Shown here: positions 8,707 to 42,032 of the stretch, piece by piece | Position numbering within the stretch: position 1 is the stretch's first letter | How the letters are laid out: the number at the start of each line of letters is the position of its first letter | NCBI RefSeq assembly: GCF_002261345.1 | Contig: NZ_NEVT01000008.1 | Location: 248,001-312,000 of the forward strand | Direction of reading: 5' to 3' | Length of the DNA: 64,000 bases | Origin: Bordetella genomosp. 2 | GTDB taxonomy: Bacteria; Pseudomonadota; Gammaproteobacteria; Burkholderiales; Burkholderiaceae_B | The notes under the pieces: model-generated | Databases searched by the model: none | What the model saw: only the letters and a program-made list of their open reading frames with translations | Told to the model about the DNA's origin: nothing | Program-made: the position numbers and the translations under genes

Positions 8707-9647
8707 GCGCCGCCAAGAAACTGCGCCTGGCGGTGGCCCAGCTCGGGCCGGTGCAGCGCGCCGATACGCGCGCCCAGGTGGTGCGCCGGCTGGTCGACCT
8801 GCTGCACGAGGCCCATGGGCGCGGCGCGCGCTGGGTCACCTTTCCGGAACTGGCGCTGACGACCTTCTTCCCGCGCTGGTCGCTGGAAGACCCCGCCGAG
8901 GTGCGCAGCTTCTTCGAGACCGAGATGCCCGGCCCCGCGACCCGGCCGCTGTTCGACGCGGCGCGCGCCAAGGGCATCGGCTTCTACCTGGGCTACGCCG
9001 AGCTGGACGGCGAGACCCAGTACAACACCAGCATCCTGGTGGGGCCGGACGGCCGCATCATCGGCAAGTACCGCAAGATCCACATCCCCGGCGATGCCAG
9101 CAGCCGCGAGGGCGCGGCCCTGCAGCACCTGGAGAAGAAGTACTTCGCCGTGGGCGACCTGGGCTTCCCGGTGTGGGACACGCCCGACGCGGCCATCGGC
9201 ATGTGCATCTGCAACGACCGGCGCTGGCCCGAGACCTTCCGCGTCATGGGGCTGCAAGGCGTGGACGTGGTAATGGTCGGCTACAACACGCCGTCGGGCT
9301 ACGTGCAGTGGAACGAACCCATCCACCTGCGCATGCACCATCACCTGCTGTCGCTGCAGTCGGCCGCCTACCAGAACGCCTGCTGGATCGCCGCCGCGGC
9401 CAAGGCCGGCGTGGAGGAAGGCAGCCCCATGATCGGCGGCTCGTGCATCGTCGCGCCCGCCGGCGAGATCATGGTGCGCGCGTTCTCCGAGGACGACGAG
9501 GTCATCAACTATATGTGCGACCTGTCGGTGTCCGGGCACTACCGCGCCAACATCTTCAATTTCGCGGCGCACCGCCGGCCCGAGCACTACCGGCCGATCG
9601 TCGAACGCACCGGCGCCGGCGCGCCGCTGGGGGCCGCGCCGCCCTGA
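8703..9647 (+). CDS. N-carbamoyl-D-amino-acid hydrolase (nitrilase superfamily)
   Basis: 314 residues, close to the 304 of characterised D-carbamoylases, which release D-amino acid, CO2 and ammonia from N-carbamoyl-D-amino acids. The Glu-Lys-Cys triad is visible: E49 in F-P-E-L, K125 in Y-R-K-I-H-I-P-G, and C170 in C-I-C-N-D-R-R-W-P-E. The N-D-R-R-W block and M-H-H-H-L-L-S-L-Q-S favour D-carbamoylase over beta-ureidopropionase or amidase. The start codon overlaps the D-aminoacylase stop. Two enzymes that both unmask D-amino acids side by side define the theme of the locus. Confidence 0.9.
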   Translation: MSAAKKLRLAVAQLGPVQRADTRAQVVRRLVDLLHEAHGRGARWVTFPELALTTFFPRWSLEDPAEVRSFFETEMPGPATRPLFDAARAKGIGFYLGYAELDGETQYNTSILVGPDGRIIGKYRKIHIPGDASSREGAALQHLEKKYFAVGDLGFPVWDTPDAAIGMCICNDRRWPETFRVMGLQGVDVVMVGYNTPSGYVQWNEPIHLRMHHHLLSLQSAAYQNACWIAAAAKAGVEEGSPMIGGSCIVAPAGEIMVRAFSEDDEVINYMCDLSVSGHYRANIFNFAAHRRPEHYRPIVERTGAGAPLGAAPP

Positions 9648-9727
9648 ACCGCAGGCTTTACAATTGCCCTTGCATTGCGGCGGGCCCGCGGGCGCCGCCG
9701 CCCCGCCACAACAAGACCAAGCTTTCC

Positions 9728-10363
9728 ATGGCCCCTGCCGCCCCGCGCGTTCCCCCCGAAATCGTCGGCAAGAAAGAAATGGGCGCCCGGCTGCGCGCCG
9801 AGCGCAAGGCCCGCAAGATGACCTTGCACGACCTGTCCCGCGCCTCGGGCATCGCCGTCTCGACCATCTCCAAGGCGGAACTCGGCCAGATCGCCCTCAG
9901 CTACGAGAAATTCGCCTCGCTGGCGCGCGGTCTGGGCATAGACATGACCCGGCTCTTCATGCTGGGCGACAGTCCGCAGGCCGAGGTGCCGCCTACTTAC
10001 GTCAAGGCCACCCTGGACGAGGCGCGCGACTACGTCACCGAGAACTACCACTACCGGCTGCTGCTGGGCGAATATCCGGGCAAGAAGATGACCCCCATGC
10101 TGGGCATCATCGACTCGCGCAGCGTCGAGGAATTCGACGATTACATCCGCCATCCCGGCCAGGAATTCGTGGTGGTGCTGTCGGGCAAGGTGCGCATCCA
10201 GTTCGAGAACGGCGAGAGCGTAGTCCTGCAGCGCTTCGAATCGGCCTACTTCGACAGCAGCATGGGGCATGTCTACCTGACCCTCAGCAAGGCGCCCGCG
10301 CAGGTGCTGGCCGTCTGCACCGACCTGGACGAAGTGCCGCGGGGACGGCGGAACCGGCCCTAG
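9728..10363 (+). CDS. XRE-family regulator with C-terminal cupin
   Basis: 211 residues. An HTH_3 domain at residues 18-75 (R-L-R-A-E-R-K...S-G-I-A-V-S-T-I-S-K-A-E) is followed by a cupin at about 115-200 with H-P-G-Q-E-F-V-V-V-L-S-G-K-V. This domain order is common in regulators of amino-acid and polyamine catabolism, where the cupin senses the ligand. It follows the carboxylase-type operon on the same strand after 80 nt that contain a TACAAT hexamer (9659-9664) but no good -35, and is probably the local regulator. It ends tail to tail with the hydrolase on the other strand, overlapping it by 4 nt. Confidence 0.9.
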   Translation: MAPAAPRVPPEIVGKKEMGARLRAERKARKMTLHDLSRASGIAVSTISKAELGQIALSYEKFASLARGLGIDMTRLFMLGDSPQAEVPPTYVKATLDEARDYVTENYHYRLLLGEYPGKKMTPMLGIIDSRSVEEFDDYIRHPGQEFVVVLSGKVRIQFENGESVVLQRFESAYFDSSMGHVYLTLSKAPAQVLAVCTDLDEVPRGRRNRP

Positions 10364-11250
10364 CCGCCGGACACGAAGGCGGCCGCCCGCCGCAGGATGT
10401 CCGGGTCGCGCAGCGCCCGCGTGTGGCCCATTTTCTCGGTCGGCAGCAGCTCGGCGCCCGGCCAGCCCGCCGCCAGCAGCGCGCCGTCTTCATACGGGCT
10501 CTCGCGGTCGCCGCGGTCGTGGATCACCAGCAGCGGAACCGACATGGAAGGCGCGAGCCGCGCCGGCTCCATCTCGGCGAAGGTGACGCCCAGCCAGCGC
10601 TCGGCGTGGCGCGCGATGCGCGGCATGACCTGCGGCGGCAGGTTCATCATGCGGCGGGAATACTCCCACACGCTGTCGTACCGGCTGACGGGCCCGAGGA
10701 AGACCGCGCGGCGCGCCTGCAGCCCGCGCGACAGGGCGAAGGTCACGGCCGCGGCGCCCATGGAATGCGCGACGACGCCGTGGAACGGGCCATGGGCGCG
10801 CGCGGCGCTAGCGATGCACGCCTCGAAATGCCGCACCGAGGCCTGCCGGCCGCTCGACCGGCCGTGCGCCACCATGTCGATGGCCACCACCCGGTGGCCG
10901 GCCTGGCGCAGCGGCTCGACGAAGCCCGTCATCTGGGCGGCATCGCCGCCCCAGCCGTGCACCAGCAACACGCCGGGACCCGGCTCGCCCCAGCTGTAGC
11001 TGTACATCGTCTGCCCATCCACATGCAGCGGCTCGACCCGCGCCGTGGCCAGGATGCCGCGGCCCGGCTCCGATGGCGGCAGGCGCCGGGGCCGGAACAT
11101 CAGGCGCCGGGCCAGGCGCGCGGTCAGTCCCGGCGCCATGGCGCCGGCCAGGCCGAACGCGCCGCCCGCCATGGACGCGGCCCAGGAGGCCTGCTTCGGT
11201 TTCCTCGCCGGCGGGACGGAATCGGGCGGAATCTTGCTTGCGCTGTCCAT
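10360..11250 (-). CDS. Alpha/beta hydrolase
   Basis: 296 residues from the start M-D-S-A-S-K; a longer open frame upstream encodes Cys-rich sequence unlike the family. The fold is shown by L-V-H-G-W-G-G-D (oxyanion hole), the nucleophile elbow A-H-S-M-G, an Asp in V-I-H-D-R-G-D and the catalytic His in M-G-H-T-R-A-L. A hydrophobic, Ala/Gly-rich stretch near residues 25-55 may be a membrane-association segment. Substrate cannot be told. It is convergent with the XRE regulator and divergent from the DNA glycosylase. Confidence 0.88.
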   Translation of the reverse strand: MDSASKIPPDSVPPARKPKQASWAASMAGGAFGLAGAMAPGLTARLARRLMFRPRRLPPSEPGRGILATARVEPLHVDGQTMYSYSWGEPGPGVLLVHGWGGDAAQMTGFVEPLRQAGHRVVAIDMVAHGRSSGRQASVRHFEACIASAARAHGPFHGVVAHSMGAAAVTFALSRGLQARRAVFLGPVSRYDSVWEYSRRMMNLPPQVMPRIARHAERWLGVTFAEMEPARLAPSMSVPLLVIHDRGDRESPYEDGALLAAGWPGAELLPTEKMGHTRALRDPDILRRAAAFVSGG

Positions 11251-33520: not shown

Positions 33521-34777
33521 TCATTCGACCTCCAGGCCGCGTTCGATGCCGGCATGCAGGACCCGGGCGGGCGCATGGGTGCCGTAGCTATAGCAGAGCT
33601 CGGCCAGGTCGGCTACCGGCCAGAATGCCAGGTCGGCCTGCTTGCCCACCTCCAGGCTACCCACCCGATCGGCCATGCCCAGCGCGCGCGCCGCGGCGTA
33701 TGTCACGCCGTTCAAGGCTTCCGCCGGCGTCATGCGGAACAGCGTGCAGGCCATGTTCAACATCAGCAGCAGCGACGCGAACGGCGACGTGCCGGGATTG
33801 CAATCGGTCGCCACCGCCATCGGCACCCCGTGCTGGCGCAGCAAGGCAATGGGCGGCGTGTGCGTATCGCGCAGGAAGTAATAAGCGCCGGGCAACAACA
33901 CCGCCACCGTGCCGGCCGCGGCCAGCGCACGCGCGCCGGCCTCGTCCAGGTGCTCGAGATGGTCCGCTGACAACGCGCCGAAGCGCGCCGCCAGCTCGCT
34001 GCCCCCCAGGTTGCTCAGCTGTTCGGCATGCAGCTTCACGGGCAGGCCCAGCGCCGTGGCGGCCTTGAACACCCGTTCGACCTGTCCGGCATCGAAGCCG
34101 ATGTTCTCGCAGAAGGCGTCCACGGCATCGGCCAGCCCGGCGGCCGCCACTGCGGGCAGCATCTCGTCGCAGACATGGTCGATATAGGCGTCGGCCCGGC
34201 CGGCATATTCCGGCGGCAGCGCATGCGCGCCCAGGAAGGTCGCGCGCACCGTGACGGCTTCCGTTTCGCCCAGGCGCCGCGCCGCGCGCAGCATGGCGAG
34301 CTCGGTGTCGCGATCGAGCCCATAGCCCGACTTGATCTCCACGGTCGTGACACCTTCGCGCATCAGCGCCTGGAGCCGCGGCCGGGCTTGCTCGAACAGC
34401 GCGGCCGTGCCGGCCTCGCGCGTCGCGCGCACGGTCGAGGCAATGCCGCCGCCGGCGCGGGAGATCTCTTCGTAGCTGGCGCCCTTCAACCGCAATGCGA
34501 ATTCGCGCGCCCGCGAACCCGCATACACAAGGTGCGTGTGGCAGTCGACCAGGCCGGGCGTGACCCACTGGCCGCCAGCGTCGACAGTGGCCGTCACCCG
34601 CATCCGGGCCGGCCGTTCGGCCGCGCGGCCGATCCAGGCGATGCGGCCGCCGGCGATCGCCAACGCGTCCGCGTCGTCGGCCACCCCGTAATCACCCGCG
34701 CGCCCGGGCGCGAAAGTGGCCAGCCGGGCATTGACGACCAAGGTATCCCAGGCCTGGGGTATTCCCTGATGCTCCAT
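33521..34777 (-). CDS. hutI: Imidazolonepropionase
   Basis: 418 residues, full length. It opens 4-imidazolone-5-propanoate to N-formimino-L-glutamate, the third step of histidine breakdown. Metal ligands H80 and H82 sit in [11 protein letters not shown], with further His in K-L-H-A-E-Q-L and D-H-L-E-H, and the metal Asp in [15 protein letters not shown] precedes the start. It is divergent from hutC and hutU over a shared promoter-operator region; formiminoglutamate hydrolase is not in the window. Confidence 0.95.
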
Positions 34778-34811: not shown

Positions 34812-34840
34812 AGTTTACTTGACTATACTTGTATATCCAA
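34812..34840 (-). promoter_or_regulatory. Putative hutI promoter
   Basis: On the minus strand TTGGAT, a 17-nt spacer and TAAACT face hutI. The elements overlap the hutC promoter head to head and share the HutC operator. Confidence 0.45.
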
Positions 34841-34847
34841 GTTAAAT
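34819..34847 (+). promoter_or_regulatory. Putative hutC-hutU promoter
   Basis: TTGACT (34819-34824), exactly 17 nt, then TTAAAT (34842-34847). A near-consensus sigma-70 pair 35 nt upstream of hutC. The 17-nt spacer is almost filled by the palindromic operator. Confidence 0.65.
34827..34842. promoter_or_regulatory. HutC-type operator
   Basis: ACTTG-TATATC-CAAGT: perfect 5-bp arms around a 6-bp core, matching the CTTGTATATACAAG-like sites known for HutC of Pseudomonas. A second ACTTG lies 10 nt to the left (34817-34821), giving a possible extra half-site. Position between -35 and -10 fits repression of both divergent promoters. Confidence 0.75.
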
Positions 34848-34881: not shown

Positions 34882-35637
34882 ATGAACGCCACGCTACGCG
34901 ACCAGCCCCTCGCCCCCTATGCCCGCATCAAGCAGCACATCATCGAGAACATCGAATCGGGCCAGTGGGCAGTCAATGAACAAGTGCCCTCCGAGAACCA
35001 GTTGGCCGCGCAATTCGACGTATCCCGCATGACCGCGCGCCGCGCCATCCTGGAACTCACGCAGGACGGCATGCTGGTGCGCAGCCAGGGCGTGGGCACC
35101 TTCGTGGCCGAACGCCGGCCTGTACTGCCGGTGCTGGAAGTGCGCAACATCGCCGACGAGATCGCCGAGCGCGGCCACCACTACAGCAACCGCGTGATCA
35201 CGCTAGAACAGGACGCGGCCACCGACGGTATCGCCATCGCGCTGGGCATCGCGCCCGGCAGCCCGGTGTTCCATTCAGTCCTGCTGCACCTGGACAATGG
35301 CGTGGCGGTGCAACTGGAAGACCGCTACGTCAATCCGCAGGCCGCCCCGGGATATCTCGAGCAGGACTTCAGCCAGGAAACCCCCAATGCCTACCTGAGC
35401 CGCGTCGCGCCCCTCTCGGCGGTCGAACACACCATCGAAGCCATCCTGCCCAACGCCGAAGTCGCCGGCTGGCTTGGCCTGGCAGGCCCGCAAGCCTGCC
35501 TGCAGGTGCTGCGGCGCACCTGGACCGCGCCCCATGTCGCGACCTTCGCCCGCCTGATCCATCCGGGCAACTCGTATCGCCTCAGCGGCTATGCCACGGT
35601 GTCCGCGCCGGCCGCCCGGACTGCGGCGCCCAAATAG
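34882..35637 (+). CDS. hutC: Histidine-utilisation repressor, GntR/HutC subfamily
   Basis: 251 residues. Winged helix at about 12-75 ([14 protein letters not shown]...[21 protein letters not shown]) and a UTRA ligand domain at 95-240. In Pseudomonas and Klebsiella the homologue represses hut genes and is released by urocanate. Gene order hutI-hutC-hutU and the operator just upstream support the name and autoregulation. Confidence 0.93.
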
Positions 35638-35657: not shown

Positions 35658-37340
35658 ATGAGCGCCCCCACGCCCACCCGCCACGACGCCTCGCGCAGCA
35701 TCCGCGCCCCTCGCGGCAACACCCTGAGCTGCAAGAACTGGCTGATCGAGGCCGCCTACCGGATGCTCCAGAACAACCTGGATCCCGAGGTCGCCGAACA
35801 CCCGCACGAGCTGGTGGTGTACGGCGGCATCGGCCGCGCCGCCCGCAACTGGCAGGCCTACGACAAGATCCTGGAGGTACTGCGCCGTCTCGAGGCCGAC
35901 GAAACCCTGCTGATCCAGTCCGGCAAGCCGGTCGGCGTATTCAAGACGCACGCCGACGCGCCGCGCGTATTGCTGGCCAACTCCAACCTGGTGCCGCACT
36001 GGGCCACCTGGGAGCATTTCCATGAGCTCGACCGCAAGGGCCTCATGATGTTCGGACAGATGACGGCCGGCAGTTGGATCTACATCGGCTCCCAGGGCAT
36101 CGTCCAGGGCACCTACGAAACGTTCTACGCGGTCGCCAACCAACATTTCGGCGGCGACCCCAAGGGCCGCTGGATCCTGACCGCCGGGCTGGGCGGCATG
36201 GGCGGAGCGCAGCCGTTGGCGGCGACCATGGCGGGCTTCAGCATGATTGCCGTGGAATGCGACGAATCGCGTATCGACTTCCGGCTGCGCACTCGCTATA
36301 TCGACGTCAAGGCCACCTCCCTCGACCAAGCGCTGGCGCTTATCGAGCAGGCCCGCGCCGATGGGCGTGCGGTGTCGGTGGGCCTGCTGGGCAACGCCGC
36401 GGACGTGGTCCAGGAAATGGTCCGCCGCAATATCACGCCCGACTGCCTGACCGACCAGACGTCGGCCCACGATCCATTGAACGGCTACCTGCCGCAGGGC
36501 TGGTCCATGGACGCCTGGCGCGACAAGCGCCAGAGCGATCCCGCCGCCGTGGTGGCAGCCGCCAGGCAATCGATGGCTGCGCATGTGCGCGCCATGCTGG
36601 AACTGCAGCAGCGCGGCGCGGCCACGCTGGACTACGGCAACAACATCCGGCAGGTCGCGCTGGAAGAAGGCGTGGCCAATGCCTTCGACTTTCCCGGCTT
36701 CGTGCCGGCCTATATCCGGCCGCTGTTCTGCGAGGGCATCGGGCCATTCCGCTGGGCGGCGCTGTCGGGCGATCCGGACGACATCTACAAGACCGACGCG
36801 AAGGTCAAGGAACTCATTCCCGACGACAAGCACCTGCACAACTGGCTCGACATGGCGCGCGAACGGATCGCCTTCCAGGGGCTGCCGGCGCGCATCTGCT
36901 GGGTCGGCGTGCGCGACCGTGCGCGGCTGGCCCTGGCCTTCAATGAAATGGTGCGCAGCGGCGAGCTGAGCGCGCCCATCGTGATCGGCCGCGACCACCT
37001 CGACTCCGGTTCGGTAGCCAGCCCCAATCGCGAGACCGAATCGATGCGCGACGGCTCCGATGCGGTGTCGGACTGGCCGCTGCTGAACGCACTGCTCAAC
37101 ACCGCCAGCGGTGCCACCTGGGTATCGCTGCACCACGGCGGCGGCGTGGGCATGGGGTTTTCGCAGCATGCCGGCGTGGTCATCGTGTGCGATGGCACGG
37201 CCGAGGCCGACCGGCGTCTGGCGCGCGTACTGCACAACGATCCGGCCACCGGCGTGATGCGCCACGCGGACGCGGGCTACGACATCGCCGTCGAGTGCGC
37301 CCGGTCGGTCGGCCTGGATTTGCCCATGCTGCGGCCGTAG
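35658..37340 (+). CDS. hutU: Urocanate hydratase
   Basis: 560 residues, full length. It adds water to urocanate to form imidazolonepropionate using NAD+ as an electrophile. The NAD-binding loop [10 protein letters not shown] is at 177-186, the active-site cysteine lies in [12 protein letters not shown], and the [11 protein letters not shown] block is near residue 495. Start 20 nt after hutC with ACGGAG. In most hut operons hutH comes next; here the following gene is a divergent HAL homologue. Confidence 0.97.
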
Positions 37341-37371: not shown

Positions 37372-39156
37372 ATGCATGATCCCCTACCGACTGCTGGCAG
37401 CGCCTTGAGGGTTCTGCGGCAGGCATCGCGACGCAGGGCGGGCCTGGCCCTGATGGCCCTGGCCACCATGACCTGCGTCTTGACCGGGCCCGACGCACGG
37501 GCGAACGACGCCGCCGTGGTGGCCGCGCAGCCCGCGGCGACCGCCGCCACGCCTGCCCGGCAGGCGCCGCTGGCGCTGGACGGCCGCTCGCTCACGCCGA
37601 AGCAGGTGCTCGAAGTGGCGCGCGGCCACCGGCCCGTGGCTCCTGCCGAAAGCGCGTGGCAGCGGGTGGACCGCTCGCACCAGCTGCTGCTCGAATACGC
37701 GCGGCTCGGCCAGCCAGTCTATGGGCTGAACCGCGGCGTCGGCCAGAACAAGGACCAGACGATTTTCTCCGGCGACACGCTTTCGGACGAGGCGCGGGCA
37801 TTGTCCGAGGCATTCAACCACCGCATGCTGCTCTCGCATACGGTCGCTTATGGCGAGCCCGCGCCGGCCGACGCCGTGCGCGCCGCAATGCTCGTGCGCC
37901 TGAATACCGCGCTCTTCGGCGGCACTGGCATGAGCCCGGCGCTGGTGCGCCAATATGTGGCATTTCTCAACCATGGGCTGACGCCGGTCGTACTCGGCCA
38001 GGGCTCGGTCGGCGAGGCAGATATCGGCATCCTGCCCCAAATCGGCCTGGCCATGATGGGCGAAGGCCAGATCGAACTCGGCGGCAAGCTCATGACGGCG
38101 GCCGACGCCCTGCGGCAGGCGGGCGTCGAGCCGGTCAGGCCCTACGCCAAGGACTCGCTGTCCCTACTCAGTTCGAATGCCTACAGCGCCGCCCTGGCCA
38201 TCCTGGCCGCGCACGATGCCGGGCGGCTCGTCGACCGCGCCGACGAGATCGCCGCCTTGTCGCTGGAAGGCCTGAACGGCAACGTCGCCCCGTTGCTGCC
38301 GGCTACCCAGGCGCAACGCCCTTATGTAGGGCAGCGCCAGTCCGCCCGGCACATTCTTGCCATGCTGGAAGGCAGCGCGCTCTGGCAAACCGACGAGCAG
38401 CGCGCGCTGCAAGATCCCCTGAGTTTCCGTACCGCCAGCCAGGTACACGGCGCCGCCCGCGACGCGCTGCGGGCGCTGGAAGCCCAACTGGCCATCCAGA
38501 TCAACAGCTCCGACGACAATCCCACCGTGGCGCTGGACGCGGTCCCGCCGCCGGGCGTCCATCCGCAGGAAGCGCGCTACTACGTGACTCGGGGCGCGGT
38601 ACGGGGCGCGGTACTGCCCAGTGCCGGCTTCGACCCCACGGCATGGGTGCTGCCGCTGCAGTCGGTCGGGGTGGCGTTGTCGCATATCGCGCAGTCATCG
38701 GCGCAACGCGTGCTGCGCCTGGGCGACCCCGGATTCTCGAAACTTTCGCGCTTCCTGTCGCCTGACAGCAAGACCTTGGCCTACACCACCATCCAGAAGC
38801 CCGTATCAACGCTGGCGACGGAAATCCGCGCACTGTCGCAGCCTGTATCGTCGGACGTGCTGGTGGTGGCCGGTCACATCGAAGACGTGGGCACCAACGC
38901 GCCCCTGGTCGCACAACGGATTCAACAGCAAGTGCAGCGGCTGCGCACGCTGCTGGGTATCGAACTGATTCACGCGGCGCAAGCCGTGGACCTGCGCACG
39001 CGCGCCGATCCACAGCGCTCACTGGGCAAGGGAACCAGCGCGCTGCTCGCGGCATTCCGCCAAGAAGTGCCGTTTCTATCGGAAGACCGGCGACTGGCCA
39101 TCGATATCGCGAGCGCCAGCCGCTTTCTTGAACGGGACCACGACGCCGGACAGTAG
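37372..39156 (+). CDS. Exported HAL/PAL-family protein lacking the MIO-forming triad
   Basis: 594 residues, start at ATG after AAGGAG. The first 45 residues form a Sec-type leader: R-R-R, then a hydrophobic A-G-L-A-L-M-A-L-A-T-M-T-C-V-L, then a probable cut at A-R-A before N-D. The rest aligns with histidine/phenylalanine ammonia-lyases: Y117 in V-Y-G-L-N-R-G-V-G (catalytic-loop Tyr kept), Asn in L-S-S-N-A-Y-S, Glu in H-I-E-D-V-G-T-N. However, the invariant A-S-G that cyclises to the MIO electrophile in G-S-V-G-A-S-G-D-L is here E215-A216-D217, and the second catalytic Tyr (Q-D-P-Y-S-L-R) is L350 in Q-D-P-L-S-F-R. HutH proteins are about 510 residues and cytosolic. It is unlikely to be a working MIO ammonia-lyase; a periplasmic binding or different lyase role is possible. 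Confidence 0.85.
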   Translation: MHDPLPTAGSALRVLRQASRRRAGLALMALATMTCVLTGPDARANDAAVVAAQPAATAATPARQAPLALDGRSLTPKQVLEVARGHRPVAPAESAWQRVDRSHQLLLEYARLGQPVYGLNRGVGQNKDQTIFSGDTLSDEARALSEAFNHRMLLSHTVAYGEPAPADAVRAAMLVRLNTALFGGTGMSPALVRQYVAFLNHGLTPVVLGQGSVGEADIGILPQIGLAMMGEGQIELGGKLMTAADALRQAGVEPVRPYAKDSLSLLSSNAYSAALAILAAHDAGRLVDRADEIAALSLEGLNGNVAPLLPATQAQRPYVGQRQSARHILAMLEGSALWQTDEQRALQDPLSFRTASQVHGAARDALRALEAQLAIQINSSDDNPTVALDAVPPPGVHPQEARYYVTRGAVRGAVLPSAGFDPTAWVLPLQSVGVALSHIAQSSAQRVLRLGDPGFSKLSRFLSPDSKTLAYTTIQKPVSTLATEIRALSQPVSSDVLVVAGHIEDVGTNAPLVAQRIQQQVQRLRTLLGIELIHAAQAVDLRTRADPQRSLGKGTSALLAAFRQEVPFLSEDRRLAIDIASASRFLERDHDAGQ

Positions 39157-39198: not shown

Positions 39199-40185
39199 AT
39201 GAATACCTCTCTCGTCATCCGCATGAGCGCCGCCATCCTGGCCGGCGCGCTGTCCACGTCGGCGGCATGCGCCGCCGGCGGCAAGTATCCCGAGCGGCCC
39301 GTCACCATAGTGGTGCCATTCGGGGCCGGCGGCATCGCCGACGCCCTGCCTCGCATCGTCGGGCAGGAACTCGGCGACAAGTGGGGCGTGCCGGTCATCA
39401 TCGAGAACAAGGTCGGCGCGTCCGGCAATATCGGTATGGACTACGTGGCCCGCGCCAAGCCCGACGGCTATACACTGGCCCTCGCGCCGGCGGGCAATTT
39501 GACCGTCAACCCCTTGCTCTACACCAAGCTGCCGTTCGACACGGCCAAGGATTTCGCGCCGGTCACCATGCTGGCCACGTCGCCCAACGTGCTGGTAGTC
39601 AATGAGCGCGTACCCGCGAGCACTTTCAAGGAACTGGTGGACTACGCCCGCCAGCATCCCGACAAACTCAATTACTCGTCCCCCGGACCCGGCAGCGGCG
39701 CCCACCTGGCCGGCGAACTGCTGAACCAATCGGCTGGCATTGTCGTGCGGCACATCCCCTACAACGCGATGGCCGCCGCGGTCAATGATGTGGTCGCCGG
39801 CAACGTCGACATGATGTTCGCGGGCGTCTCGACGGTGCTGCCGCAGATCCAGGCCGGCAAACTGCGCGCGCTGGCCGTGGCCGGTCCCGCGCGCCTGCCA
39901 CAGCTGCCGGACGTTCCCACCGTGGCGGAAAGCGGCTACCCCGGCTTCGACGTGACCTCTTGGTACGGCATCGTGGCGCCCGCCGAGGTCCCGGCCGAAA
40001 TCCTCGACCGGCTGCAGGCCGACATCGCCGCCGCCGTCGGCATGGAAGCCGTGCGCCAGAAATTCACCGGCTTGGGCGTGGAGCCGGCCGGCTCGAGCCG
40101 CGCCGACTTCGCCCGCACCATCCAGGACGAGAGCCGCAAGTGGGCGGCCATCGTCAAGAAAGCCGGCATCCAGCCTATCCAATGA
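39199..40185 (+). CDS. Bug-family periplasmic receptor 2 (hut region)
   Basis: 328 residues, Sec signal ending A-C-A-A-G-G, AGGGGAAA ribosome site. Family blocks Y-P-E-R-P-V-T-I-V-V-P-F-G-A-G-G-I-A-D, I-E-N-K-V-G-A-S-G-N-I-G and A-K-P-D-G-Y-T are present. It lies 42 nt after the exported HAL homologue; both proteins should meet in the periplasm. It may bind histidine-derived or other carboxylates. No TctAB genes nearby. Confidence 0.92.
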   Translation: MNTSLVIRMSAAILAGALSTSAACAAGGKYPERPVTIVVPFGAGGIADALPRIVGQELGDKWGVPVIIENKVGASGNIGMDYVARAKPDGYTLALAPAGNLTVNPLLYTKLPFDTAKDFAPVTMLATSPNVLVVNERVPASTFKELVDYARQHPDKLNYSSPGPGSGAHLAGELLNQSAGIVVRHIPYNAMAAAVNDVVAGNVDMMFAGVSTVLPQIQAGKLRALAVAGPARLPQLPDVPTVAESGYPGFDVTSWYGIVAPAEVPAEILDRLQADIAAAVGMEAVRQKFTGLGVEPAGSSRADFARTIQDESRKWAAIVKKAGIQPIQ

Positions 40186-40198
40186 CCGAGGAGACCTC

Positions 40199-41203
40199 AT
40201 GCAGTCCATCGACATCACCTACCTGAACGGACCCGACGTACGTGCGCTGGCGCTCACCGACGCCGAAATTCTCGCCGCCGTGGAAAGCGCGCTGGACGCA
40301 CAAGGACGCGGCAAGACCGTCATCGAGCCACGGGTGCACCTGGTGCCGGAATCCTCGACCAAAGGCCATTTCAATGTGCTGCGCGGCTATATCGAACCGC
40401 TGCACGTCGCCGGCGTGAAAGTAGTCAGCGACTTTGTCGACAACTACAAGATCGATCTGCCATCTGAAATGGCCCTGCTGAACCTGTTCGACCCAGTCAA
40501 CGGCAAGCCGCTGGCCGTCGTCGACGCCACCGCCATCACCGACATGCGCACCGGCGCGGTCACGGCCCTGGGCGCCAAGTACCTGGCGCCGAAGCGGAGC
40601 AAGGTGCTGGGCCACATCGGCTCGCGCGGCACTTCGTACTGGAATGTCCGCCTTCTCGACAGCCTCTACGATTTCGACGAGATCCGCGTGCACTCCCGCC
40701 GTCCCGAAAGCCGCCAGGCATTCGGCGAGCGCCTGTCGCGCGACCTGGGCAAGCCGGTCAAGGTGGTGGACGACTGGGAGTCCTGCGTGCGCGACGCCGA
40801 CATCGTCGTCGAGGCCTCGCGCCTGCCCGAGCCCACGCCACTGCTCAGGACGGAATGGATCAAGCCCGGCGCCCTGGTCATGCCCTACGGCACCATGAGC
40901 GCGGTGGAATTGAGCCTGACTGACATCATGAGCAAAGTGGTCGTCGACGACTGGGGCCAATGCCGCAAGGGGCTCCCCTACGGCGCGCTGCGCGCCCACG
41001 TTGACAGCGACCGCATCACCGAGGAAAACCTGCACGCCGAGATCGGCCAGATCGTCGCGGGGGCCAAGCCGGGCCGCGAGCGTGACGACGAGACCATTCT
41101 GTTCTGGCACCGCGGCCTGTCAACCACCGACATCGCGCTGGGCCATGCCATGCTCGAGAAGGCCCGCAAGATGGGCCTGGGCCAGACGCTCAAGTTCGCC
41201 TAG
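40199..41203 (+). CDS. Ornithine cyclodeaminase/mu-crystallin-family protein
   Basis: 334 residues with GAGGAG before the start. The core matches the family: K-V-V-S-D-F-V-D-N-Y, P-L-A-V-V-D-A-T-A-I-T-D-M-R-T-G-A-V-T-A-L-G-A-K-Y-L-A. The nucleotide loop reads L-G-H-I-G-S-R-G-T-S, a variant of the usual G-x-G-x-Q-A. Members include ornithine cyclodeaminase, alanine dehydrogenase, ketimine reductases and opine-type enzymes, so the reaction is not fixed. Start is 13 nt after the Bug receptor; probably one operon from hutC. Confidence 0.87.
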   Translation: MQSIDITYLNGPDVRALALTDAEILAAVESALDAQGRGKTVIEPRVHLVPESSTKGHFNVLRGYIEPLHVAGVKVVSDFVDNYKIDLPSEMALLNLFDPVNGKPLAVVDATAITDMRTGAVTALGAKYLAPKRSKVLGHIGSRGTSYWNVRLLDSLYDFDEIRVHSRRPESRQAFGERLSRDLGKPVKVVDDWESCVRDADIVVEASRLPEPTPLLRTEWIKPGALVMPYGTMSAVELSLTDIMSKVVVDDWGQCRKGLPYGALRAHVDSDRITEENLHAEIGQIVAGAKPGRERDDETILFWHRGLSTTDIALGHAMLEKARKMGLGQTLKFA

Positions 41204-41213
41204 GCACTGCGCC

Positions 41214-42032
41214 ATGGAGCTGATCGCTTCCACACGCATGTACGACGCGGCCCCCGCGGCGCGCGCCGCCTGGCACGCGCTGCTCCAGGCCGCGCACGCG
41301 CGCGCCGGCCTGGAGATCCGGTTCGTCGAACACGGCTGGCCGACTCCCATCGGTGAACTGTGGGACCGGCCCGGCCTGTGCGGCGCCTTCATGTGCGGCT
41401 GGCCCTTCGCCACCGCCTTGCGGGCGGGACGCGCCTACACGGCCATCGCCGGCGTGGTCCCGGCCTGGCCCGCCTATCGAGGGTTGCCGCGTTACCGCAG
41501 CGAGTTCCTGGTGCGCGTCGACAGCCCCTGGCGCACGCTGGCCGACGCGACCGGCAGCCGCTATGGCTGGATGGTGCGCGACTCGCAATCCGGCTGGAAC
41601 GCGCCGCGCGCCACTCTGGCCCGGCACATCCCGCCGGGCGGCTCGCGGTTCGCCGAATCCAAAGGGCCATACGGCAACCCGCGCGGCCTGCTGCGCGCCC
41701 TGGTGGATAAGCAAATCGACCTCACCGCGGTGGACGGCTGGTACCTGGACTTGCTGCGCGCGCACGACCCGGACACATTGGCCGGGCTGCGTACCCTGGC
41801 CTATACGCCCTGGACCCCCAACCCGTTGCTGGTGGCCGGACCCGACGTAGACCCGGCCGTCGCCGCGCGCCTGTCGCGCGCGCTGCTGATCCTGCACGAA
41901 GACCCGCGCGATGCGTCGCTGCTACGCAATGCGCACGTGGCGCGCTTCGTGCGGCCCGCACCCGCGCGCTACGGGGCGCTGATAGACATGGAGCAGGCGG
42001 CGCTCGCCCGCGGCTATCCGGAGATCCGCTGA
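41214..42032 (+). CDS. PhnD-like substrate-binding-fold protein without signal peptide
   Basis: 272 residues. It resembles the phosphate/phosphonate and small-ligand binding family: E-L-I-A-S-T-R-M-Y at the N-terminus, C-G-A-F-M-C-G-W-P-F-A, R-Y-R-S-E-F-L-V-R near residue 100 and T-P-W-T-P-N-P-L-L-V near residue 200. The N-terminus runs straight into the first strand, so no export signal is seen and no in-frame extension offers one. ABC permease and ATPase genes are absent. It may be a cytosolic ligand-binding protein or enzyme, close to the OCD gene (10 nt). Function unknown. Confidence 0.7.
   Translation: MELIASTRMYDAAPAARAAWHALLQAAHARAGLEIRFVEHGWPTPIGELWDRPGLCGAFMCGWPFATALRAGRAYTAIAGVVPAWPAYRGLPRYRSEFLVRVDSPWRTLADATGSRYGWMVRDSQSGWNAPRATLARHIPPGGSRFAESKGPYGNPRGLLRALVDKQIDLTAVDGWYLDLLRAHDPDTLAGLRTLAYTPWTPNPLLVAGPDVDPAVAARLSRALLILHEDPRDASLLRNAHVARFVRPAPARYGALIDMEQAALARGYPEIR

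Follow-up and report, generated by a model that had tools for sequence, protein, structure and literature searches.

The gene directly after hutU in this stretch of Bordetella genomosp. 2 DNA (the window, 64,000 nucleotides long) is best explained as encoding an exported, MIO-independent trimethylamine (TMA) lyase of the hut regulon, acting most likely on ergothioneine-2-sulfonate, with an OCD/mu-crystallin family protein of the same operon leading the product on to urocanate; taken as a whole, we consider this explanation reasonably probable. The protein is, by its sequence, MIO-free, having no A-S-G to cyclise, and family matches and phylogeny make it very probably an ergothionase-type lyase. 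The features on which the argument draws are as follows.

33521..34777, minus strand: hutI, imidazolonepropionase, divergent from the operon (NCBIfam TIGR01224, 488.8 bits, cut-off 298)
34828..34841, plus strand: HutC-type operator CTTGTATATCCAAG, between hutI and hutC (motif match)
34882..35637, plus strand: hutC, GntR/UTRA repressor (TIGR02018, 293.8 bits, cut-off 220)
35658..37340, plus strand: hutU, canonical urocanase (TIGR01228, 980 bits, cut-off 375)
37372..39156, plus strand: MIO-less lyase, very probably of ergothionase type, with N-terminal leader (ORF, Pfam, PDB match, alignment, leader rule)
37372..37503, plus strand: putative leader peptide, residues 1-44, cleavage by eye between ARA and ND (sequence, crude rule from the ATG, group comparison)
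38014..38022, plus strand: E215-A216-D217, at the position of the MIO triad and shorter by one residue than the site in histidine ammonia-lyase (HAL) (alignment)
39199..40185, plus strand: TctC/Bug-type substrate-binding protein (PF03401; nearest solved chain a terephthalate-binding protein)
40199..41203, plus strand: OCD/mu-crystallin family protein, a proposed reductive desulfonase (PF02423)
41214..42032, plus strand: PhnD-like protein, no leader visible (PF12974)

The lyase, its family and its leader

The open reading frame encodes 594 amino acids counted from the ATG, with no internal stops, and matches the Pfam family Lyase_aromatic at 424.9 bits against a cut-off of 27.3. An earlier sequence-only reading had described a lyase-fold frame with a leader and without A-S-G directly after hutU, and Pfam, the alignment and the leader rule all confirmed it. 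That reading also held that E-A-D replaces the triad. E215-A216-D217 does occupy the site, but the alignment sets G-E-A-(gap)-D-I of the window lyase against G-A-S-G-D-L of HAL, so that a deletion removes one residue of the triad and D217 stands in the column of the conserved Asp after the triad, not in that of its Gly; the A-S-G that forms MIO in HutH is not there. L350 was correctly placed at the second catalytic Tyr of HAL. Y117, R353 and E504 align with their HAL counterparts, and the claim of kept HAL blocks therefore stands for the Tyr and the Glu, but N269 (of SSNA) lies two columns past the Asn of HAL's N-G-T-Q. The residues common to ergothionases, namely the Tyr, the Lys and Asp of NKD, the Lys of IQK and the Glu of IED, are all present (Y117, K127, D128, K476 and E504); a 2019 study of ergothionase reportedly named four catalytic residues. 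In 23 of 23 aligned rows the triad site begins with E, Q, A or D and continues with A and D, and pN/pS of the lyase domain is 0.16-0.23 in four pairs, indicating purifying selection; a sequencing error at the site is therefore very unlikely, and we reject both error and gene decay as its origin.

Among solved structures the closest is the ergothionase of Treponema denticola (PDB 6s7j/6s7q) at 331 bits, followed by a probable histidine ammonia-lyase at 165, and a 46-row tree places the window lyase among 32 ergothionase-type lyases with support of 100/99, apart from HutH. L119, a partial match with a stop inside, was excluded from alignment and tree, and L140 and L141 are absent from the tree; the T. 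denticola row is the first branch of the group, on a long branch and with its exact placement unsure. A score of 291.9 bits against the NCBIfam HutH model (TIGR01225, cut-off 539), together with the triad and the tree, led us to reject HutH as its identity: HutH shares the fold and the operon position, but has the MIO triad and the second Tyr, has no leader and forms a separate clade. With the T. denticola enzyme the window lyase shares the fold, the missing triad with its one-residue deletion (G-E-G-D there), the Leu at the second Tyr and the NKD, IQK and IED motifs; it differs in that the solved chain is leaderless and begins at the domain, although that construct could have been trimmed. 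Ergothionase converts ergothioneine to TMA and thiourocanic acid without MIO, according to the accessible part of PMC13405746. MIO-free lyases of the aromatic-lyase fold are thus already known, and the generalization that every active member needs MIO fails on the very enzyme that is the closest solved structure.

The window lyase is the only PF00221 gene in its genome, so it does sit where hutH would be expected, as the sequence-only reading held. A phylum-wide profile search at E 1e-100, which scored no more than three candidates in each genome, matched at least 3 of 398 genomes, this one among them. A third MIO-less kind of lyase was seen in L072 (7156-8589, minus strand), L094 and L099, with GSVGY followed by L-T/S-H-M, a site three residues shorter and no visible leader; the copy in L072 is adjoined by hutC, hutU and hutI.

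Seen by eye, the window lyase begins with a leader, MHDPL...RRRAGLALMALATMTCVLTGPDARA followed by ND, with cleavage at residue 44, whereas a crude rule (a hydrophobic stretch, a preceding Arg/Lys and small cleavage-site residues; not SignalP) cleaves at residue 39. In a comparison that left out window copies (L001, L086, L137) and rows with identical domains, the rule was passed by 33 of the 36 lyases with the group's defining motif, NKD (or ARQ), the window lyase counted among them, and by none of 64 MIO enzymes and none of the five GVAD-type lyases, a second MIO-less group. Three group members missed it: L004 is cut by a contig end, and L003 and L062 are leader-like by eye. Change is fast in the leader region, with pN/pS of 0.57-0.80 for two pairs, against the constrained domain. 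These observations argue strongly for export of the window lyase, which the sequence-only reading had also placed outside the cytoplasm, and, given the leaders across the group and their contrast with the domain, export is probably a trait of the whole sampled proteobacterial group and not of the window gene alone. Tat export was rejected as a group trait, a twin Arg being confined, by eye, to the window and some relatives.

The hut operon, its operator and its partners

The order hutC-hutU-lyase-tctC-ocd-phnD is kept together by gaps of 10-42 bp, hutU ending 31 bp upstream of the lyase. The operator, searched for with a consensus that we take to be that of HutC, is the window's sole match with two mismatches allowed, where 0.02 would be expected, and with hutC, hutU and hutI it places these genes in the hut regulon. 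The genome holds one urocanase, of canonical type; this hutU reaches 703 bits with the thiourocanate hydratase model NF058530, under the cut-off of 930, and that identity was rejected. No thiourocanate hydratase, the mark of thio-branch ergothioneine operons, was found in the genome, and thiohydantoin desulfurase, ErtD and ErtE are not among the genes identified in the window operon. HutF above cut-off was not found in the genome either, which we count against our explanation where the route after HutI is concerned. For the substrate, the most telling features are the partners TctC, OCD and PhnD-like. Alanine dehydrogenase and pyrroline-2-carboxylate reductase are among the relatives that OCD has in the PDB; the nearest solved relatives of the PhnD-like protein are an Aio-designated PtxB-like protein, ArrX and HtxB, and it may be an enzyme or may act as a binding protein in the cytosol.

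The operator recurs in 10 of 12 distinct Alcaligenaceae loci of the window's lyase clade (clade A), with loci on the same contig, as judged from its length, counted once (L050 with L008, L051 with L003, L053 with L002, L054 with L007 and L057 with L005); in L002 and L004 the contig ends before the operator region. It precedes hutC in the window, L003 and L048. In seven Achromobacter-type loci where no hut gene was found beside the lyase (L005, L006, L007, L008, L055, L056 and L058), it stands in every case some 40-190 bp ahead of the lyase, with two mismatches in L006 and L056. The two MIO-less groups together contribute 28 further lyase loci, of which 1 (L084) has a match. A two-mismatch match in Polaromonas (L077) falls inside a LysR gene and is probably due to chance, and in P. 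saliphilus a wider stretch places the operator between ocd and the gene of a YeiH-type transporter.

Partner genes across the relatives

Genomic context was compared over 44 listed loci. Clade B, the sister of clade A (58-63% identical), belongs to ergothioneine-degradation operons: its nine loci carry thiourocanate hydratase and an MFS transporter alongside the lyase, and those that reach far enough also thiohydantoin desulfurase and ErtD. The lyases of L064-L066 (47%) stand alongside S-methyl thiourocanate hydratase, ErtD and ErtE; enzyme names are those of NCBIfam for L061, L064 and L062, and the remaining loci were classed by best match to these. In L064-L066, ARQ replaces NKD and the IQK segment is altered, which makes this change a candidate substrate switch. 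The bacterial ergothioneine operon (thiourocanate hydratase, thiohydantoin desulfurase, ErtD, ErtE), whose lyases include the sister clade with its leaders, therefore differs from the window operon, which has canonical HutU and OCD instead.

An OCD orthologue accompanies the lyase in 13 of 13 distinct clade A loci; where the hydratase is of thiourocanate or S-methyl type, it was found at none of 15 loci. Searched at E up to 1e-60, the P. denitrificans, B. arboris and S. meliloti plasmid records with other group lyases did not contain it. Canonical HutU was named by NCBIfam in L082, L081, L042 and L048. OCD lies next to hutU in L082 and, on the L081 plasmid, 9 kb from the lyase, past hutF/I/H/G/U; HutU conservation equals or exceeds that of OCD in both. 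Three times an OCD-linked lyase is sister to a thiourocanate-hydratase-linked one (clade A with clade B, L082 with L079, and L081 with L083), with the hydratase classed by best match. OCD goes with two types of lyase, across alpha- and betaproteobacteria and at 70-96% identity, and for that reason probably has a fixed substrate. The PhnD-like gene is found with OCD in most OCD loci, though not, by the reference sequences used, in L082, L154, L155, L149 or L150. Neither kind of urocanase nor OCD was found in the stretches covered for L052, L063, L078, L116, L117 and L118, some of whose contigs end close by, and we count this against our explanation. L078 (S. meliloti pSymA, 8935-10575) is an exported group lyase annotated hutH, with urocanase and OCD not found nearby.

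NKD lyases are often accompanied by carboxylate uptake genes (TctC, MFS, TRAP). The GVAD-type lyases are leaderless and have OpuAC-type betaine-binding proteins nearby in L041, L042, L080 and L084, not in L085; the rhizobial OCD-linked lyases of L080 and L084 lie beside betaine-type ABC genes. EgtU, according to the accessible part of PMC9732360, binds ergothioneine with high affinity and is discussed as analogous to betaine-binding proteins. These patterns fit two architectures, cleavage outside the cytoplasm in the NKD group and inside it in the GVAD group. The GVAD-type lyases of L080 and L085 also lie near LLM flavin-dependent oxidoreductase genes, and that of L085 near CoA-transferase and MaoC genes, a context that perhaps indicates another aromatic betaine.

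Among 250 family genomes (OCD orthologue threshold E 1e-120), OCD was present in 18: in 10/10 clade A genomes versus 0/12 with only other group lyases, in both genomes with a GVAD-type lyase, and in 6 of the remaining 226. With urocanases classed by best tblastn match, each of the 10 clade A genomes has a canonical enzyme and seven lack the thiourocanate type (six with a single canonical urocanase, and G103 with a second canonical one); G199, G224 and G231, which hold a clade B lyase too, have the thiourocanate type besides. The window's own genome (G000) and G141 each have one urocanase, and their sole PF00221 gene is the clade A lyase. In six of the 18 OCD genomes PF00221 finds no MIO-less lyase, and in four of these six it has no match of any kind; this too counts against our explanation. 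The OCD loci of the six include L152 and L153, with hutI, hutC-hutU-tctC-ocd-phnD and the operator, L154 and L155 (hutC, tctC, ocd), L156 (tctC-ocd-phnD) and L157 (hutC, ocd, phnD, hutU, hutI). The occurrence of tctC-ocd-phnD in loci that lack the lyase suggests a role for these genes downstream of it; alternatively, OCD could serve another source of urocanate-like acids. If the lyase product is diffusible and these genes act on it, lyase-less hutC-hutU-tctC-ocd-phnD operons are what one would expect, and L152 and L153 are possible scavengers of that product.

The likely substrate and the fate of its product

In the route that we favor, the lyase would eliminate TMA from a histidine betaine in the periplasm to leave a urocanate-type acid, most likely converting ergothioneine-2-sulfonate to 2-sulfourocanate, and TctC would capture this acid for uptake. 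In the cytosol OCD would put a hydride on ring C2 of 2-sulfourocanate and expel sulfite to give urocanate, which HutU and then HutI would degrade. Urocanate is the inducer of HutC, and could in this way turn the operon on. A flux into urocanate, to which the operon context points through a canonical HutU in the company of OCD, is the part that we hold with good confidence; a sulfonate substrate with OCD as desulfonase has, on the present comparisons, about an even chance. Still more tentative is the full picture of a periplasmic ergothioneine branch, in which an exported MIO-free TMA-lyase acts on the sulfonate outside, a dedicated OCD desulfonates the imported sulfourocanate, HutC exerts control, and lyase-less neighbors would scavenge the released acid.

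Several clues bear on the sulfonate. A YeiH-type transporter gene lies near three OCD-lyase clusters, once divergent from ocd with the operator between them, which fits a release of sulfite, since YeiH drives sulfite resistance in Salmonella (PMC12880088, in its accessible part). YeiH was near the lyase in none of 12 Alcaligenaceae genomes tested, each with one copy elsewhere, and we count this against our explanation. Positions that split OCD-linked from thiourocanate-linked lyases numbered 4, versus 8, 5 and 6 in label-swapped controls, so that the substrate cannot be read off the lyase sequence. The T. denticola ergothionase is said to accept ergothioneine sulfonate as well, in work by Maurer from 2019; one promiscuous lyase could serve both branches and, if the sulfonate is accepted, would fit the three sister pairs with different partners. 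The chemistry is possibly shared with the ergothioneine sulfonate pathway of Agrobacterium radiobacter, reportedly described by Yan in 2022, which may include an OCD-type step. Ergothioneine sulfonate has been detected in spent mushroom substrate, where hercynine is present also, as the accessible part of PMC12785439 indicates.

Hercynine (histidine betaine) was the substrate that we initially favored: an exported TMA-lyase would yield TMA and urocanate directly, for uptake by TctC and degradation by HutU and HutI, which suits the canonical HutU, the HutC-type operator, HutI, the missing HutH and the occurrence of hercynine just noted. It was demoted because OCD, common to both lyase types and persisting without a lyase, would be left without a role; our literature search also found nothing that combines hercynine, urocanate and a lyase, and we now think it unlikely. 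Slightly less likely again is a plain ergothionase forming thiourocanate and TMA, with OCD or another enzyme removing the sulfur as H2S to give urocanate, or with thiourocanate staying outside. The family match and the ergothioneine-degradation operons of the sister clade, with their thiourocanate hydratase, speak for it, but the genome's sole urocanase scores under the thiourocanate-hydratase cut-off, OCD was found at none of the 15 hydratase loci, and YeiH points to sulfite. The sequence-only reading had proposed that the scaffold was reused for another chemistry or for ligand sensing; the former survives, with catalysis favored, and the latter found no support. A non-catalytic or sensing protein would account for the missing triad and the replaced second Tyr, but ergothionase, an enzyme, has identical replacements, and the motif residues are kept in relatives under purifying selection, so that we regard it as very improbable. 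An MIO-independent histidine ammonia-lyase replacing HutH, suggested by the hut operon position and the lack of another PF00221 gene, is scarcely credible beside a HutH score of 292 against 539 bits, the grouping with ergothionase-type lyases and the leader.

An exported or hut-linked MIO-free lyase was not found in the literature searched, although most subscription papers fell outside that search and the evidence of absence is weak. For annotation, the result means that the MIO triad is missing from some genes which records of Polaromonas, Paracoccus, Sinorhizobium and Rhizobium call hutH or "aromatic amino acid ammonia-lyase", as it is from their relatives in Bordetella and Achromobacter, and that these are probably not ammonia-lyases. 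Exported lyases of this kind would free trimethylamine outside the cytoplasm from an antioxidant of mushroom origin, or from the product of its oxidation, and cleavage there would make the product available to neighbors. The link between OCD and HutU offers a testable route by which oxidized ergothioneine may be returned to histidine catabolism.
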